DNA from: Caldisericum exile
GTDB lineage: Bacteria; Caldisericota; Caldisericia; Caldisericales; Caldisericaceae
Length of the DNA stretch: 42,610 nucleotides
Reading direction: 5' to 3'
Assembly: GCA_020722505.1 (NCBI GenBank)
Contig: DYKR01000003.1
Location: 8,556 to 51,165, forward strand
Position 1 is the stretch's first letter; every line of letters begins with the position of its first letter. Below the pieces are notes generated by a model. It saw only the letters and a program-made list of their open reading frames with translations, was not told the DNA's origin and did not search any database. This document shows positions 10,354 through 42,394 of this stretch, one piece after another. Both the position numbers and the translations under genes were made by a program.

Positions 10354-10393
10354 ACCTTTATAACGAATCTTAAAAACTGCAATGGAGGTTAAT

Positions 10394-11323
10394 ATGGGAG
10401 TAAGTAGCGCTGAACTATTTCAAGCAACATTGGCTGGAATTGTTTCATTTATTTCTCCTTGTGTTTTGCCTTTGATACCTGCATACATTTCCTACATAAC
10501 AGGAGAAACACTCACCAACATGAAGGAAGGAAAAGTTTCTTCTACAAAACTTCTTGTAAACTCAATTGCTTTCATGCTTGGCTTTTCCGTAGTTTTTATT
10601 ATTATGGGAGCTTCTGCAACTTTTATAGGAAAGTTTCTCTCAAGAAATAAACTATTATTTGAAGCTATTGCTGGCACAATAATCATTCTGTTTGGATTGC
10701 ATACAGCAAACATAATCAATTTCAGATTTCTAAGTTATGAAAAAAAGTTAAAAGTTGATACCAAAACCCCAAGTATCTTTAAGGCTTTTATTCTCGGTTT
10801 TGCTTTTAGTTTTGGTTGGACTCCCTGTGTAGGGCCAATCTTAGGCACAATACTAATTCAAGCAAGCACACATGAAACAGTAGTCCAAGGAATAATACTC
10901 TTAGTAGCATACTCATTGGGTATGGGTATTCCCTTTATCCTCACAGCACTTGCCATAAATAAATTCTTTGAAGTATTTGCATCTCTTAGAAAGTTCTTTG
11001 GACAAATCGAAATGTTTTCAGGACTTCTCATTATAGGCGTAGGACTTGCTCTCGTTTTTCATATTGGATTACACTCTAACTACCTAATTGGCATTGTACT
11101 TGCTACAACTGGCTTTACGATACTATCAACACAAAAGATAACAATCTCAACTATTTTAGGTATTGTATCTATTTTTGCATCTATTCTAATAACTTCAGAA
11201 ATAAAATTCTTAGAAAACAGCTATTTAAACAAAACTCTTATCGCTTTTGTTATTTTTCTCATTGCAAGTATAATTTCAATGTGGAAGGTAGGCAATAAAA
11301 ATGAGCGAAGTGAGAAAACATAA
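10394..11323 (+). CDS. ccdA: CcdA-type thiol-disulfide electron carrier
   Basis: Membrane protein that passes electrons from cytoplasmic thioredoxin to extracytoplasmic thiol proteins. Two redox cysteines sit in the family motifs FISPCVLPLIPAY and GWTPCVGPILGTIL, in helices 1 and 4. It is 309 aa, longer than the usual 220-240 aa, with two or three extra membrane helices after the core six. ATG 10394 is chosen over 10382 because GGAGGT ends four bases upstream; the upstream ATG overlaps that site. It overlaps rbfA by 23 bases and no thioredoxin partner is adjacent, so its client may be the TlpA-like protein at 25220 or cytochrome maturation; neither is shown. Confidence 0.9.
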   Translation: MGVSSAELFQATLAGIVSFISPCVLPLIPAYISYITGETLTNMKEGKVSSTKLLVNSIAFMLGFSVVFIIMGASATFIGKFLSRNKLLFEAIAGTIIILFGLHTANIINFRFLSYEKKLKVDTKTPSIFKAFILGFAFSFGWTPCVGPILGTILIQASTHETVVQGIILLVAYSLGMGIPFILTALAINKFFEVFASLRKFFGQIEMFSGLLIIGVGLALVFHIGLHSNYLIGIVLATTGFTILSTQKITISTILGIVSIFASILITSEIKFLENSYLNKTLIAFVIFLIASIISMWKVGNKNERSEKT

Positions 11324-20430: not shown

Positions 20431-20517
20431 GGAGGGGTGGCCGAGTGGACGATGGCACCGCACTTGAAATGCGGCAGACGATGAGTCTCGTAGGTTCGAA
20501 TCCTATCCCCTCCGCCA
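20431..20517 (+). tRNA. tRNA-Ser(TGA)
   Basis: Acceptor stem GGAGGGG pairs with CCCCTCC, the D-arm GGCCGAGTGG is present, the anticodon stem CCGCA/TGCGG encloses loop CTTGAAA with anticodon TGA at 20465-20467, and there is a long variable arm (ACGA..TCGT) and a T-loop GGTTCGAATCC. CCA is encoded. The class II long variable arm agrees with serine. It sits between serS and the next gene, whose ATG is ten bases past the CCA. Confidence 0.97.
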
Positions 20518-25219: not shown

Positions 25220-26302
25220 ATGGCAAGGTCAAAAACTAAAAAACAAAAAGAAAAAGAAATTGAAGAAAGAAAAAGAAAGCAATTTTTTGTCAAAGTTTTA
25301 ATTGCTTCAGTAATATTTGTATTGCTATTAACGGGCTTTTTTCTAATAAGACTAAGCCAAAAAAGAGCCACAATAAGTAAATATGCAACAGTCATTAGTA
25401 AAGAGGAAGTAAGGGAAAAAACTTTAGGCTTTAAAACATTAGTAACAAACCCACGCGTGCTTACTGACCCCTTACGGTTTGCCGATAATTTTGCCGCAGA
25501 AGACCTCCAAGATGAAAATGGAAAAGTTGTTGCACACGAAGCAATAATAATAATTGACAATCCTTCTTATAACTTAGATAAAGAAAATATTCCTTCAAAT
25601 GCTTCTATTCTACTTATTGTTGATACTAATCTCAATGTTCTTTCTATAACTCCATTTAACCCCACATACTTTGATTTAGGGATAGAATTTGATAAATACT
25701 TTGAATCTTACAAGCAAAAGAATGCCGAATTAATAATTAAACAAGTAGATGGCATTAACGTAGGGGACAGTAATACTGCGTTAGTTATTAAAAACAAAGT
25801 AAGAGAATCCTTAAGTCTTTTTTATATTGAGAAATACGGATTACAAAAATTCTCTTCCTTACAGGGAGGCGGATACATATTTGCAGAAAGAGGAGTAAAA
25901 GTGAATCCACTTTCTTTAAAAGATGTAAACGGAGTCACGTATAACCTTGATGAATTTAGAAATTATAAGTTAGTGATCATCGCAGGCAATCCTGATTGTG
26001 GTTCTTGTGTATCAAGTGTTTCAGAATTAGGTAAGGTCTTTAAGCAACAAGACTTATCCGATGTAAAATTTATAGTGCTTTCCTTTGGAGATACAAAAGA
26101 AGCTCTTGAGAAATTAACCAATGTTCTTCCTGACGGAACTATTGGAGTTATAGATAACAATAGAGAGATTGCAACACAACTTAAATTAAACATTTCACCA
26201 TACATTGCCCTTGTTGATAAAGATTTAACACTATACTTTAGAGGACCTGCAGAACCAAACAAAGATACGTTAGAGAATATAAAAGAATTTTTAACACATT
26301 AA
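25220..26302 (+). CDS. Membrane-anchored thioredoxin-fold protein with FMN-bind-like middle domain
   Basis: 360 aa. A strongly basic/acidic N-terminus (to residue 21) and one membrane helix (about 22-44) anchor it with the bulk outside. Residues about 100-205 (ILLIVDTNLNVLSITPFNP, then KQVDGINVGDSNTALVIKNKV) recall the FMN-bind fold of NosR/RnfG, but the usual SGAT flavin threonine is absent. From about 230 a TlpA/redoxin domain follows with active site NPDCGSC (C260, C263), cis-Pro region NISPYIALVDKD and a C-terminal helix. ATG 25220 has AATAGGAG upstream; an in-frame ATG six codons earlier lacks a ribosome site. First gene of the three-gene redox cluster. Confidence 0.75.
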   Translation: MARSKTKKQKEKEIEERKRKQFFVKVLIASVIFVLLLTGFFLIRLSQKRATISKYATVISKEEVREKTLGFKTLVTNPRVLTDPLRFADNFAAEDLQDENGKVVAHEAIIIIDNPSYNLDKENIPSNASILLIVDTNLNVLSITPFNPTYFDLGIEFDKYFESYKQKNAELIIKQVDGINVGDSNTALVIKNKVRESLSLFYIEKYGLQKFSSLQGGGYIFAERGVKVNPLSLKDVNGVTYNLDEFRNYKLVIIAGNPDCGSCVSSVSELGKVFKQQDLSDVKFIVLSFGDTKEALEKLTNVLPDGTIGVIDNNREIATQLKLNISPYIALVDKDLTLYFRGPAEPNKDTLENIKEFLTH

Positions 26303-26311
26303 GGAGGAGTT

Positions 26312-28345
26312 ATGAAAAAATTACTGTCGTTAGCAATTTTATTAGTTATGCTTTTTAGTTTAATCCATACCCTAAAAGCACAAACATCTGTTTCTAATGT
26401 AAGCGTTAATGTCAACCCAAGTTATAGGAATACTTATGCAGAATACAGAATAACCTTCACAATCAATAAGGAATTAAAAACAGGAGTTGATTATATATTC
26501 ATCCAATTTCCAAAAGAGTGTTCTATTCCATGCACATCATGTGCTTACGCACACTGTGTTGGTTGTTTTAAAATTAACGACACAAATGCATCAGGAGCAG
26601 GAACGGTAGAAAACTACAAGAATGCAATATACTTGCGAGTGCCAATAAATATTCCTGCAGGAAATCAAGTAGAAGTATCCATTTCACAATCAGCAAATTT
26701 CAGAAATCCGTATCTTCCTGGTAAATACAAAATTGAGGTTTGGACTTCCCAGGAAGTAGAACATGTAGCCTCAAACGAATTCGATATCACTTCAACAAAG
26801 ATTAGTAATCTTACTGTTTCCGTAGATCCTGAATTCACAAACTCAAAAACATCTATTTCTATAAATTTCACTACAGGCAACTTGGGTGATATTCCAAATG
26901 GAAAATTTATCTACATCAAATTTCCAAGCGAATTTACACTTCCGCAAATAGCAAAAAAAGAATTTATTTCTATAAATTCACTTGTTCCACTTGAAGCAAA
27001 AATTGATAGCACTAAACTTGCTCTTCAAATTGCAAGTTCTATTGGAAGAAACAGAAATATTACAATAAAAATTTATCCATCTTTCGGTATTATAACACCA
27101 CAAAAAAAGGGAATCTATACCTTTAGCGTTTCAACTGATACAGAAGTTGAATTGGTAAGCGCCCAAGTTGAAATAAGAGAAAGGGATTTTGTGAGAACAC
27201 TAATTCAAACAGACCCAATTGAACATAACGGAATTAACGGTTTCTTTATCTCACCTATAACTATAAGCCTCTTTGGAGAAACTAACACACAAGAGAAAGT
27301 AACCACATTTTACAAAATAAACAATGGCGAATACAAGCTCTATGAAAAACCATTTAACTTATCCGAAGGGGTCTATTATGTATCCTTTTATAGCAAAACA
27401 GATACACTTACAGAGGATGTAAAAACTAGTATTTTCAAGATTGATCTAACTCCAGCTGTAATCTCTTTAGATTGTAATGACCTTACCTACACCGCAGGAT
27501 CGACTTTTGTAATTTCAGGCAAAATTTCTGAGCCATCTGAACAATCATTCCTATTCATAAACGGATTAATGGTAAATGTAAACAACAATCTTTCATTTGT
27601 AAAAATTGTTCCATTAGAAATTGGCGAGAATAAATTTGTAATTAAAGTAACTGATACAGCTGGCAACAAAACAACCAAGGAAATAAAAATTATACTTGAT
27701 ACTACAATTCCTGTTTTAGACATTGAGACCCCAGTAAATTTTCAAGAATGGACAAAAGAAGCAATCTCTGTAAAAGGAAGTGTGTCTCCCCAAAATTGTG
27801 ATGTTTATGTAAATAACGAAAAAGCTGTAGTTAATGAGAATGGAGAATTTAATTTTGAATACATACCAAAAACTAATAACTCCTTACTACCTGTTAATAT
27901 AATAGCTATTTATCCATTCACAAAAACAAGTGTCGAAAAAAAACTCATCGTCTATTATATGCCACCGCCTACTAAAATTGTTTTGACAATTGGAAAAAAG
28001 GAAATCACAGTTAACAATAATTCTTACACCATGGACGTTGCACCTTTTATTGATAAAAATAGCGGAAGAACTCTTGTTCCTATAAGATTTATTTCTGAAT
28101 TTTTAGGATTTGATGTAGGTTGGAACGAGATTATAAAAACTGTCACAATAAAAAACTCTTCGAAAACAATTTTACTTACCATAGGCAAGAAAACAGCATT
28201 AATTAATGGAGTTGAATATGAGCTTGAAACTCCACCCGTAATTATTAATTCTAGAACTTTTGTTCCTCTAAGATTCATAGGTGAAGCATTTGGGTATAAA
28301 GTAAATTGGGATGAAAAAACAAAATCAATTACGATTATAAAATAG
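26312..28345 (+). CDS. Secreted multidomain protein with five-cysteine cluster and copper-amine-oxidase-N stalk repeats
   Basis: 677 aa, with a signal peptide (residues 1-23, cut after LKA). Two related beta-sandwich repeats follow: residues about 25-165 and 166-290, each with FIQFPKE/YIKFPSE and a G-rich ending. Only the first has a cysteine cluster: C70, C74, C77, C82, C85 (C-x3-C-x2-C-x4-C-x2-C). Residues about 290-385 and 385-550 are Ig-like. The last 120 residues are two copper-amine-oxidase-N-type repeats, each with LTIGKK, T/RTLVPIRFI or TFVPLRFI and W-x-E/D-x-x-K-T. These are common surface-anchoring stalk modules and do not bind copper by themselves. AAGGAGG precedes the ATG. Exact function unknown. 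Confidence 0.7.
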   Translation: MKKLLSLAILLVMLFSLIHTLKAQTSVSNVSVNVNPSYRNTYAEYRITFTINKELKTGVDYIFIQFPKECSIPCTSCAYAHCVGCFKINDTNASGAGTVENYKNAIYLRVPINIPAGNQVEVSISQSANFRNPYLPGKYKIEVWTSQEVEHVASNEFDITSTKISNLTVSVDPEFTNSKTSISINFTTGNLGDIPNGKFIYIKFPSEFTLPQIAKKEFISINSLVPLEAKIDSTKLALQIASSIGRNRNITIKIYPSFGIITPQKKGIYTFSVSTDTEVELVSAQVEIRERDFVRTLIQTDPIEHNGINGFFISPITISLFGETNTQEKVTTFYKINNGEYKLYEKPFNLSEGVYYVSFYSKTDTLTEDVKTSIFKIDLTPAVISLDCNDLTYTAGSTFVISGKISEPSEQSFLFINGLMVNVNNNLSFVKIVPLEIGENKFVIKVTDTAGNKTTKEIKIILDTTIPVLDIETPVNFQEWTKEAISVKGSVSPQNCDVYVNNEKAVVNENGEFNFEYIPKTNNSLLPVNIIAIYPFTKTSVEKKLIVYYMPPPTKIVLTIGKKEITVNNNSYTMDVAPFIDKNSGRTLVPIRFISEFLGFDVGWNEIIKTVTIKNSSKTILLTIGKKTALINGVEYELETPPVIINSRTFVPLRFIGEAFGYKVNWDEKTKSITIIK

Positions 28346-28358
28346 CATGGCAAATATT

Positions 28359-29522
28359 ATGAAAAAGATTTTTATACTAATTTTTGTTGCATTATTCATT
28401 ATACCACTTACAAAAGTAAACGCTGCTACCAATGTAAAAGTTGTGTTCTTTTCTACTCCTGGATGTTCCGAGTGTGCACTTACCCGTAATTATCTTGAGA
28501 GTTTAAAAGAAGTCTATCCACAAATAGAAATAATTGAATACTCAGTTTCAGAAAACAAGAATAAAGAACTTCTTTCTCAACTTGGTAATAAATACGGACT
28601 TAAAGAAAATCAAATCAATGTAACCCCTGCAGTATTTATAGGCGAAAAAGCTTTTGTCCGCGAAGAGACTTTCCACAATTTAGACAAAATTATAGAAAAT
28701 TTCAACCCAGAAGAAAACGCTTTTCTTGAAAAAGCACTCCAAGAAAATACAGAAAATTCACAACTTGTAGAGATGTTTAAGAAATTTGGAGTATTAACCG
28801 TAGTTAGCGCTGGTTTAATAGATGGCTATAATCCATGTGCTATTACTGTTCTAATATTCTTTATTTCACTTTTAACCTTGAAAGGTAAATCCAAAAAAGA
28901 AATGCTTTTAGTGGGGGTCTCTTTTATACTTGGTATTGGAGTCTCATACCTTTTACTTGGCATTGGGCTTTTTCAAATAATTGCTAAGTGGAAATATTTT
29001 GACTTTATATCACGCTGGGTTTATCTTGTAACAGCACTAATAACATTTATACTTGTTGTTTTAACATTCTCAGATTACTTCAAAGCCAAAAAGGGAAACA
29101 CAAAAAATATGACTCTTCAACTCTCTTACGCAGAAAAAAAGTCAATCCATACGTTGCTAAGAAAACGTATAACCGCACTTGAGTCCTTATCTGCATTTCT
29201 TATTGCTTTTCCTGTTTCAATTGTTGAATTCTCATGCACAGGGCAAACGTATCTACCAACAATCGTCTATATTTTTAGTATGGAAAACTTGGAAGCAAAA
29301 GCACTTGTTTATCTTATCTTATATAACTTTATGTTCATTGTCCCTTTGGTAGTTATTACAGTTTTTGCTTATAAAGGTGCAACTTCAGAAAGAATTACTA
29401 CTTGGTTTAGAAAAAATATTGCAACTATAAAGCTTTTTACGGGAATAATTTTTTTACTACTTTTTACGTATCTACTCGTTAAAACACTTTCTCTTTTTGG
29501 GTTAATAAACCCGATAATATAG
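28359..29522 (+). CDS. Secreted thioredoxin/glutaredoxin domain fused to CcdA-like electron carrier
   Basis: 387 aa from ATG 28359. Residues 1-22 are a signal-anchor ending VNA; residues about 25-110 are a thioredoxin-type fold with FFSTPGCSECA (C36, C39) and TPAVFIGEKAF as the cis-Pro loop. Residues about 140-387 form six membrane helices with the two CcdA-type cysteine motifs DGYNPCAITVL and VEFSCTGQTYLP. Architecture is like a simplified DsbD/ScsB. An ATG four codons earlier (28347) is possible; neither has a good ribosome site, so start is uncertain. Starts 13 bases past the 677-aa gene, so coupling is likely. Confidence 0.8.
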   Translation: MKKIFILIFVALFIIPLTKVNAATNVKVVFFSTPGCSECALTRNYLESLKEVYPQIEIIEYSVSENKNKELLSQLGNKYGLKENQINVTPAVFIGEKAFVREETFHNLDKIIENFNPEENAFLEKALQENTENSQLVEMFKKFGVLTVVSAGLIDGYNPCAITVLIFFISLLTLKGKSKKEMLLVGVSFILGIGVSYLLLGIGLFQIIAKWKYFDFISRWVYLVTALITFILVVLTFSDYFKAKKGNTKNMTLQLSYAEKKSIHTLLRKRITALESLSAFLIAFPVSIVEFSCTGQTYLPTIVYIFSMENLEAKALVYLILYNFMFIVPLVVITVFAYKGATSERITTWFRKNIATIKLFTGIIFLLLFTYLLVKTLSLFGLINPII

Positions 29523-29550
29523 TAGAAAAGGTATTCCATCCATAAAAAGG

Positions 29551-29784
29551 TAAGAAATGCTCTTCTTTATTTCAAAATCTTAAAGAAAAAATTAAACAAG
29601 AAACGAGCAATTTTGAATTTCTTTCCAAAATATCCACTTTTAAGAAAACGTAAAGATTCTCATAGAAATACTTTCAGGTTATGAAAATAAAATTTTTAAA
29701 GAGTTAAAAGGAATTCGCTATTCTAATGAATTACATGCAACAATAAATTGTATTGATTTTTTGCAAAAAAAATATACAATATAA
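29551..29784 (+). pseudogene. Remnant of a broken gene upstream of pdxS
   Basis: Two adjacent frame pieces have coding-like composition but no start codon. Piece A (29551 to about 29650) reads SSLFQNLKEKIKQETSNFEF and then LSKISTFKK; piece B (about 29650-29784) reads NVKILIEILSGYENKIFKEL, then [20 protein letters not shown], ending TAA. Joining them needs one indel near an AAAA run at 29646-29649. The VKILIEIL..KIFKEL..FLQKK layout vaguely resembles a small winged-helix regulator, but I do not recognise a family. It may instead be chance open sequence or leader for pdxS. Confidence 0.35.
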
Positions 29785-40187: not shown

Positions 40188-40195
40188 AAAGCCTC

Positions 40196-40312
40196 CTTCA
40201 AATTAAAAACCCGGTTGATTGCCAACCGGGGTAAAGAGGTAACATGCAACTTTCCTTTTAACCTCGGTTGGCAAATTTAAGGGAATTAGATCCCACCAAC
40301 TGTCTTCGGTTT
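40196..40312 (-). promoter_or_regulatory. L10 leader with attenuator for rplJ-rplL
   Basis: On the minus strand the region reads ACCGAAGACAGTTGGTGGG near its 5' end, the known bacterial L10-binding core. Next comes TTGCCAACCG (complement of 40265-40274), which pairs perfectly over 10 bp with CGGTTGGCAA (complement of 40219-40228). That segment can alternatively form the terminator hairpin at 40210-40230. A -10-like TATAAT (40313-40318) just upstream suggests a separate promoter. Inference: free L10(L12) bound to the leader tips the balance to termination. Confidence 0.75.
40205..40230 (-). terminator. Intrinsic terminator (attenuator) before rplJ
   Basis: On the minus strand CCCGGTTG, loop GCAAT, then CAACCGGG, followed directly by TTTTT. 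This 8-bp GC-rich stem with U tract is a textbook terminator, located 18-43 bases before the rplJ ATG. Confidence 0.8.
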
Positions 40313-40326
40313 ATTATAAAAAATAA

Positions 40327-41025
40327 CTAAGCCTTCAATAGCTCGTTTACATTCACCTTAACTGCAGGTGACATCGTAAGCGAAAGATAAACCTTCTTAA
40401 TAAACTGGCCACGAACTGAAGCAGGTCTGGATTTAACAACTGCAGAATTAAAAGCTAACAAATTTTCTTTCAATTGGTCAGCTGTAAAAGATGATTTACC
40501 AATTACCGAATGTAATACACCTGTTTTATCAACTCTAAACTCAATTTTGCCAGCCTTAAACTCCTTCACGGCATTGTAGATATCCATAGTTACAGTGCCA
40601 GATTTCGGGCTTGGCATGAGTTTTCTTGGTCCCAATATTTTAGCAATCCTACCAAGCGGTCTCATCATATCAGGGGTGGCAAGAGCAACATCAAAATCTA
40701 AAAAACCTTCTTTTTCAATTTTTTGAATTAGATCTTCCCCGCCTACATAATCGGCATTGGCTTCTTTAGCCTCTTGAGCTTTATCCGCTGTTGCAAAAAC
40801 AAGCACTCTTACACTCTTGCCAGTGCCGTGAGGAAGGGTAATAACTCCTCTAATGTTTTGATCAGCTTGTTTTGGATCGACATTCAATGCATAGGTAACT
40901 TCCACAGATTCATCGAATTTTACGCTTTTTAAATTTTTCACAGTATTAATTGCTTCATCAATAGAATAAGCCTTTGCTTTATCAACTTTCTTCAATAACT
41001 CTAAATACCTTTTTCCTCTTTTCAC
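40327..41025 (-). CDS. rplA: Ribosomal protein L1
   Basis: 232 aa, full length. Family text: KRGKRYLELLKKVDKAKAYS, VEVTYALNVDPKQADQNIRG, LPHGTGKSVRVLVFA, LGPRKLMPSPKSGTVT and IEFRVDKTGVLHSVIGK. Start is GTG 41025, with AAGGAGG upstream. It forms the L1 stalk and in many bacteria feeds back on rplKA mRNA; no such leader element was traced here. Confidence 0.97.
   Translation of the reverse strand: MKRGKRYLELLKKVDKAKAYSIDEAINTVKNLKSVKFDESVEVTYALNVDPKQADQNIRGVITLPHGTGKSVRVLVFATADKAQEAKEANADYVGGEDLIQKIEKEGFLDFDVALATPDMMRPLGRIAKILGPRKLMPSPKSGTVTMDIYNAVKEFKAGKIEFRVDKTGVLHSVIGKSSFTADQLKENLLAFNSAVVKSRPASVRGQFIKKVYLSLTMSPAVKVNVNELLKA

Positions 41026-42318: not shown

Positions 42319-42392
<74 letters not shown>

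Positions 42393-42394
<2 letters not shown>

Follow-up and report, generated by a model that had tools for sequence, protein, structure and literature searches.

In a stretch of 42,610 nucleotides (the window), taken from a metagenome-assembled genome of the heat-loving Caldisericum (phylum Caldisericota; 0.69 Mb, 57% complete), three neighbouring genes, here called A, B and C, encode a membrane-anchored thioredoxin-like protein, a secreted surface protein and a thioredoxin domain fused to a membrane carrier. We consider it moderately likely that they make up one operon whose products relay electrons reductively, from thiol to thiol, through the cytoplasmic membrane, leading from protein C, together with protein A, to protein B. 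We infer the direction of the relay, the order of its steps, transcription as a single operon and the role of B as acceptor from the gene linkage, four invariant cysteine pairs, the predicted folds, the signal and transmembrane segments, the restriction of an Ig-borne cysteine pair to B-type proteins and the lack of genes for cytochrome c assembly in those A-C lineages that were tested for them.

Gene order and its conservation in Caldisericota

As the initial annotation had described, the three genes are consecutive and co-directional, and their open reading frames, strands and coordinates were confirmed (Table 1). A and B are separated by 9 bases and B and C by 13; the gaps are again 9 and 13 in genome G012, whose 90%-identical orthologues support the starts chosen for A, B and C. 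A scan for promoters and terminators gave no signal above that of shuffled sequences. Between C and pdxS, the window has about 230 bases (29523–29752) with no open reading frame of 60 amino acids, and the same interval in G012 holds two open reading frames, of 133 and 149 amino acids (L092 7339–8300). Elsewhere in the window are a standard CcdA gene (PF02683, E 5e-18; 10382–11323, forward strand), located immediately 5' of rbfA, genes for tRNA-Ser(tga) (20431–20517, forward strand) and tRNA-Trp(cca) (42319–42394, reverse strand), and a ribosomal protein L10 leader (40194–40327, reverse strand).

Table 1. Genes A, B and C and their principal features, in window coordinates
Feature	Position	Strand	Remarks
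Gene A, membrane-anchored TlpA/ResA-like thioredoxin protein, 360 aa	25220..26302	+	Start backed by orthologue in G012; alternative start 25202
A middle domain (residues 74–206), FMN_bind-like, without flavinylation motif	25439..25837	+	Profile comparison
A active site C260-G-S-C263	25997..26008	+	Both cysteines invariant in 30/30 homologues
Gene B, secreted multi-Ig surface protein, 677 aa	26312..28345	+	Start backed by orthologue in G012
B cysteine pair C74/C77, first Ig-like domain	26531..26542	+	CxxC; CxC in other genera
B C-terminal pair of Cu_amine_oxidN1 (PF07833) domains, probable cell-envelope anchor	27968..28342	+	Pfam, E 3e-47
Gene C, N-terminal thioredoxin domain fused to CcdA-like six-TM carrier, 387 aa	28359..29522	+	Alternative start 28347
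C thioredoxin motif CSEC	28464..28475	+	CxxC invariant in 28/28 C homologues
C first membrane cysteine C164 (numbering from 28347; NPCA motif)	28836..28838	+	Invariant in 27/27
C second membrane cysteine C297 (numbering from 28347; CTGQ motif)	29235..29237	+	Invariant in 27/27

The three families were searched for in 54 genomes of the phylum, in which f1 designates the Caldisericum family, the window's own, f3 designates Cryosericum and its relatives, and f2 is a third family. A, B and C are consecutive in 16 of the 18 f1 genomes. In one of the two exceptions, G011, the contig ends at gene C, and A and B would be expected beyond it; the other, G015 (77% complete), contains none of the three. 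When the 16 genomes are compared pairwise, A, B and C occupy the same positions in 120 of 120 pairs. Among the flanking genes from -6 to +6, the upstream gene at -2 is common to 37 of 78 pairs and all others are shared by at most 12 of 36 to 105 pairs. This -2 gene of the f1 relatives, which encodes 162 amino acids, was rejected as a fourth member: by sequence it resembles an adenosine-specific kinase, and it is not found beside the triad in the window's genus. In several f1 genomes there is an overlap of 4 bases between B and C, which would fit translational coupling. The neighbourhood comparison proposed in the initial annotation shows very strong linkage of the three genes in the Caldisericum family, where neither scattered genes nor B orthologues lacking the cysteines were encountered.

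In f2, genes A and C adjoin and B is missing. In f3, A and C overlap or abut, and the B-type protein is encoded about 12 kb from them in G027, G036 and G037, within the same run of surface-protein genes. Since A and C are paired without B in f2, these two genes are the core, with B as a lineage-specific partner. A propeller-type protein is a possible fourth member in some lineages. In G009, which we take to be C. exile AZM16c01, a 547-residue protein of this type, with a Cu_amine_oxidN1 anchor, is encoded 13 bases 5' of A (L093 6730–8373, forward strand), and homologues (E 1e-14 to 1e-19) are located directly 3' of C in f3 (L113 4069–5847, L114 15328–17268 and L116 11435–13363). Two cysteines are conserved in all six propeller-type proteins compared; in the window, no such gene adjoins the triad. 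As both B and the propeller-type protein carry conserved cysteine pairs and are encoded near A and C, two different surface proteins seem to associate with the A-C core. In f5 and f6, the A homologue is grouped with an aminotransferase and a propeller-like protein, and in four genomes of these families (L121, L123, L279 and L281) its neighbour is a surface protein of about 780 residues, consisting of an N-terminal thioredoxin domain (WCxxC), Ig repeats and a Cu_amine_oxidN1 anchor. The proposal of a closed relay of three proteins agrees with the linkage in f1, but is too narrow for the f2 arrangement, for the distant B of f3 and for the propeller-type protein, with its cysteine pair, that is added in C. 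exile and Cryosericum.

Domain structure and conserved cysteines

Protein A has a single transmembrane segment (residues 25–43), a middle domain and, at its C-terminus, a redoxin domain (PF08534, E 1.5e-6). The one hydrophobic segment and the C260-G-S-C263 motif bear out its earlier description as a membrane-anchored, TlpA-like protein. The AlphaFold2 model of A has a pLDDT of 89 (structure predictions were built from 11–18 sequences), and the top Foldseek matches of its thioredoxin domain are ResA, CcmG, TlpA and pneumococcal Etrx1 (4hqs), with target-normalised TM-scores of about 0.6–0.78. Proline 327, at the cis-Pro position, is invariant in A4. By its predicted fold, CxxC motif, conserved proline and membrane anchor, A is a TlpA/ResA-type protein, for which reductase activity is predicted. 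Searches with its sequence gave no significant relatives in the PDB and no matches among plasmids.

When the middle domain of A is compared with the FMN_bind profile (PF04205) by hhalign, a probability of 79.5 and a score of 37.3 are obtained, with shuffled sequences scoring at most 15.8 and real decoys at most 18.6; Pfam hmmscan gives no FMN_bind match for this domain. The [ST]GATx[ST] flavinylation motif is absent from every aligned A homologue, making a covalently bound flavin on A unlikely, and this candidate was set aside. In protein A, what looks like an FMN_bind fold without the flavinylation motif is fused to a TlpA-type thioredoxin domain.

Protein B consists of a signal-like N-terminus, a chain of Ig-like domains and two C-terminal Cu_amine_oxidN1 domains, which, despite their name, are most likely an envelope anchor. 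These are the only Pfam domain types found in B, and no Msr domain is among them. Its AlphaFold2 model (pLDDT 88) shows Ig-like beta-sandwiches, and many of the structural matches are multi-Ig or Ig-like repeat proteins. The initial annotation had described a secreted protein of 677 residues with a five-cysteine cluster. The length, the signal-like N-terminus and the cysteines at positions 70, 74, 77, 82 and 85 are all present, but conservation is confined to C74 (17 of 17 sequences) and C77 (16 of 17), with C70 found in 2 of 17, C82 in 6 and C85 in 7, ruling out the cluster as one unit. The spacing of the pair varies between CxxC and CxC, and the seventeenth sequence, a paralogue from G014, has a shifted CxC. 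Apart from the nearest relative, B orthologues are about 40–47% identical to the B of the window, and the pair is present in all f1 orthologues; its retention at this level of identity points to strong selection on C74/C77. A histidine is located near the pair in most f1 sequences (PCTSCAYAHC, PCSCPHNWH).

With a profile of the first Ig domain of B, 345 distinct homologous domains were collected from all fetched loci, 23 of which have CxC or CxxC at the site of the pair; these counts depend on the loci fetched, a large but incomplete sample, and a first round had given 22 of 202. All 23 belong to B-type proteins, 16 from f1, two being the G014 paralogues and five from f3 (G027, G028, G031, G036 and G037), while among the domains fetched from f2 and f4 to f6 none has the pair. 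Families f1 and f3 are the two that have both C and a B-type protein, with G031 (80% complete) having the cysteine-bearing Ig domain and no detected C. In G014 (L125), one surface-protein cluster contains both another A-like gene and paralogues resembling B that have CxC motifs (PCNC, PCPC).

Protein C starts with a signal-like segment, followed by a thioredoxin-like domain, facing outward and bearing the CSEC motif, and by six transmembrane segments with two invariant cysteines. The earlier assignment as a thioredoxin-CcdA fusion holds for this layout, but likeness to CcdA rests on weaker evidence: C does not match PF02683 (CcdA/DsbD_TM) in Pfam, and one homologue (L150) matches DsbD_2 (PF13386) weakly, below the cut-off. 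When C is aligned to the separate CcdA of these genomes, about 205 columns can be aligned with the membrane cysteines in register, in a statistically weak match (hhalign probability 7%, P 0.005); in CcdA itself, the six-TM core has its two membrane cysteines in transmembrane segments one and four. A PDB sequence search with C gave no significant relatives, and relatives of C were found in 466 encoding stretches in genome contigs, indicating a widespread thioredoxin-CcdA fusion family. C belongs to the same family as the fusions of Chloroflexota, deltaproteobacteria, WOR-3 and others; those outside Caldisericota are mostly longer, with one or two further N-terminal CxxC motifs, a role that the separate gene A may fill in Caldisericum. 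In the fusions outside Caldisericota (L145–L206), the extra N-terminal CxxC often reads CPHC, which suggests that several thioredoxin domains follow one another within a single polypeptide. These extra motifs look DsbA/Grx-like, and a Rosetta-stone fusion of A to C was rejected.

Proposed electron path and alternative explanations

In the relay that we propose, a cytoplasmic thioredoxin would deliver electrons to the two membrane cysteines of C, from where they would pass to the CSEC motif of C's own outward thioredoxin domain and then to the CGSC motif of the membrane-anchored A. Protein A, or C directly, would reduce C74/C77 on the first Ig domain of B, and whatever B does in the envelope would involve this pair being held reduced or cycling. 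Exactly one ordinary CcdA besides C is encoded in every f1 genome tested, so other donors exist, and the triad provides a second conduit that is probably dedicated. VKOR was looked for as an oxidative partner and none was found; molybdopterin enzymes, considered as a possible sign of respiration, number one in most genomes and were not taken as evidence. Counting against the relay are the existence of these other donors, the missed DsbD_TM match of C, the weakness of its alignment to CcdA, the f2 genomes where A and C are found without B or a cysteine-bearing Ig domain, and the variable spacing of the pair in B. As f2 keeps A and C without B, B would not be a universal client.

Protein B could instead be a folding client, with A and C acting as a general envelope reductase or isomerase and C74/C77 as a structural disulfide that needs them for correct formation. 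The occurrence of A and C without B in f2 would fit this, as would the nature of B as a long Ig surface protein and the second pair, C82/C85, which makes mispairing possible in some species. However, a CxC or CxxC pair on one loop is unusual as a structural disulfide, most B orthologues have few other cysteines and thus little to isomerise, and the 322 other surveyed Ig domains of the family manage without the pair; we regard this explanation as unlikely, though with an appreciable chance of being right. The histidine near the pair raises the prospect of a metal site, for which A and C would keep the thiols reduced. That histidine, however, is missing in G008 and G007, the Cryosericum sequences (PCTPCNQK, PCSPCNPL) do not have it at the corresponding position, and no further conserved ligand is seen, so that metal binding seems distinctly less probable than a folding role.

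The change of partner from family to family (B in f1, the propeller-type protein in f3 and C. exile, the thioredoxin-Ig protein in f5 and f6) might mean that A and C serve several unrelated envelope proteins, B being tied to them by co-regulation or history only. Yet all of these partners carry a conserved cysteine pair or a thioredoxin domain and the B pair is found in f1 and f3 only, and we think it improbable, more so than a metal site. CcdA and TlpA/ResA are also the classic set for cytochrome c maturation, in which case B would be an unrelated passenger; in f6, a CcsA/CcmF-type assembly gene is divergently placed beside the A-homologue set, and both f6 genomes tested contain a PF01578 (Cytochrom_C_asm) protein. 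Against this, PF01578 was found in none of nine f1–f3 genomes, each at least 94% complete, and linkage to B is absolute in f1. With no cytochrome c assembly genes in the A-C lineages tested, maturation of cytochrome c is excluded as far as these genomes go, and we give it very little credence overall.

A bolder version of the proposed relay may also be formulated, in which the Ig-borne CxxC/CxC of B would have evolved independently as a redox centre and the operon would use thiol exchange to send electrons out to the cell surface. There B, with the linked propeller-type protein in C. exile and Cryosericum, would pass them to an acceptor outside the cell, for instance sulfur compounds or other proteins of the envelope, and the whole would serve as a surface electron conduit built on cysteines and not as a housekeeping reductase. 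We rate this as quite unlikely, between the folding client and the metal site in probability.

Comparison with known systems

Taken literally, the statement of the initial annotation that no named system has this exact triad is correct, but the same plan of CcdA, thioredoxin and surface protein underlies the pneumococcal ccdA1-etrx1-msrAB2 operon, whose three genes encode a relay established by experiment (PMC3914529). Its CcdA membrane carrier would correspond to the CcdA-like C, its surface thioredoxin of TlpA/ResA fold to A, and its surface-exposed acceptor with cysteines to B. The pneumococcal acceptor is a methionine sulfoxide reductase, whereas B has no Msr domain; furthermore, the carrier in Caldisericum has an extra thioredoxin domain joined to its N-terminus, and A includes an FMN_bind-like domain besides its thioredoxin domain.

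The same three building blocks also make up DsbD, as an Ig domain (nDsbD), a CcdA-like transmembrane domain and a thioredoxin domain (cDsbD). In DsbD they are joined in one protein, whereas in Caldisericum they are split over separate proteins, with the thioredoxin N-terminal to the carrier in C. The Ig-fold thiol acceptor nDsbD has its cysteines, C103 and C109, on opposite hairpin strands (PMC7347389), while the CxC/CxxC pair of B is on one loop, and we note the likeness without claiming homology. DsbD-type flavinylation clusters, containing ApbE, DUF3570, thioredoxin-like proteins and DUF4266 with CXC (PMC8238504), have in common with the triad a membrane thiol carrier, a thioredoxin and a secreted CXC protein, and also an FMN-related domain if the FMN_bind likeness of A is real. 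However, A lacks the flavinylation motif, ApbE is encoded elsewhere in the genome, and B is a large Ig protein and not DUF4266. With CcdA-ResA/TlpA cytochrome c maturation, the triad shares a CcdA-like carrier and a protein of ResA/TlpA fold, but not the cytochrome c assembly protein, which was not found in the f1–f3 genomes tested.

Among the described envelope thiol relays that we considered, the end points are cytochrome assembly, disulfide isomerases and Msr enzymes. If true, a relay ending in a cysteine pair that was added to one Ig domain of a surface protein would put such relays to a new use, and this in a deep-branching phylum, among lineages with no detectable cytochrome c assembly genes. 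The pair singles out one defined protein within a large family of surface proteins that is otherwise anonymous, and A, B and C make up a small, testable protein set. The module is a variant of the known plan of CcdA, thioredoxin and surface acceptor and no new category, while its surface end, the Ig-borne cysteine pair, looks new.
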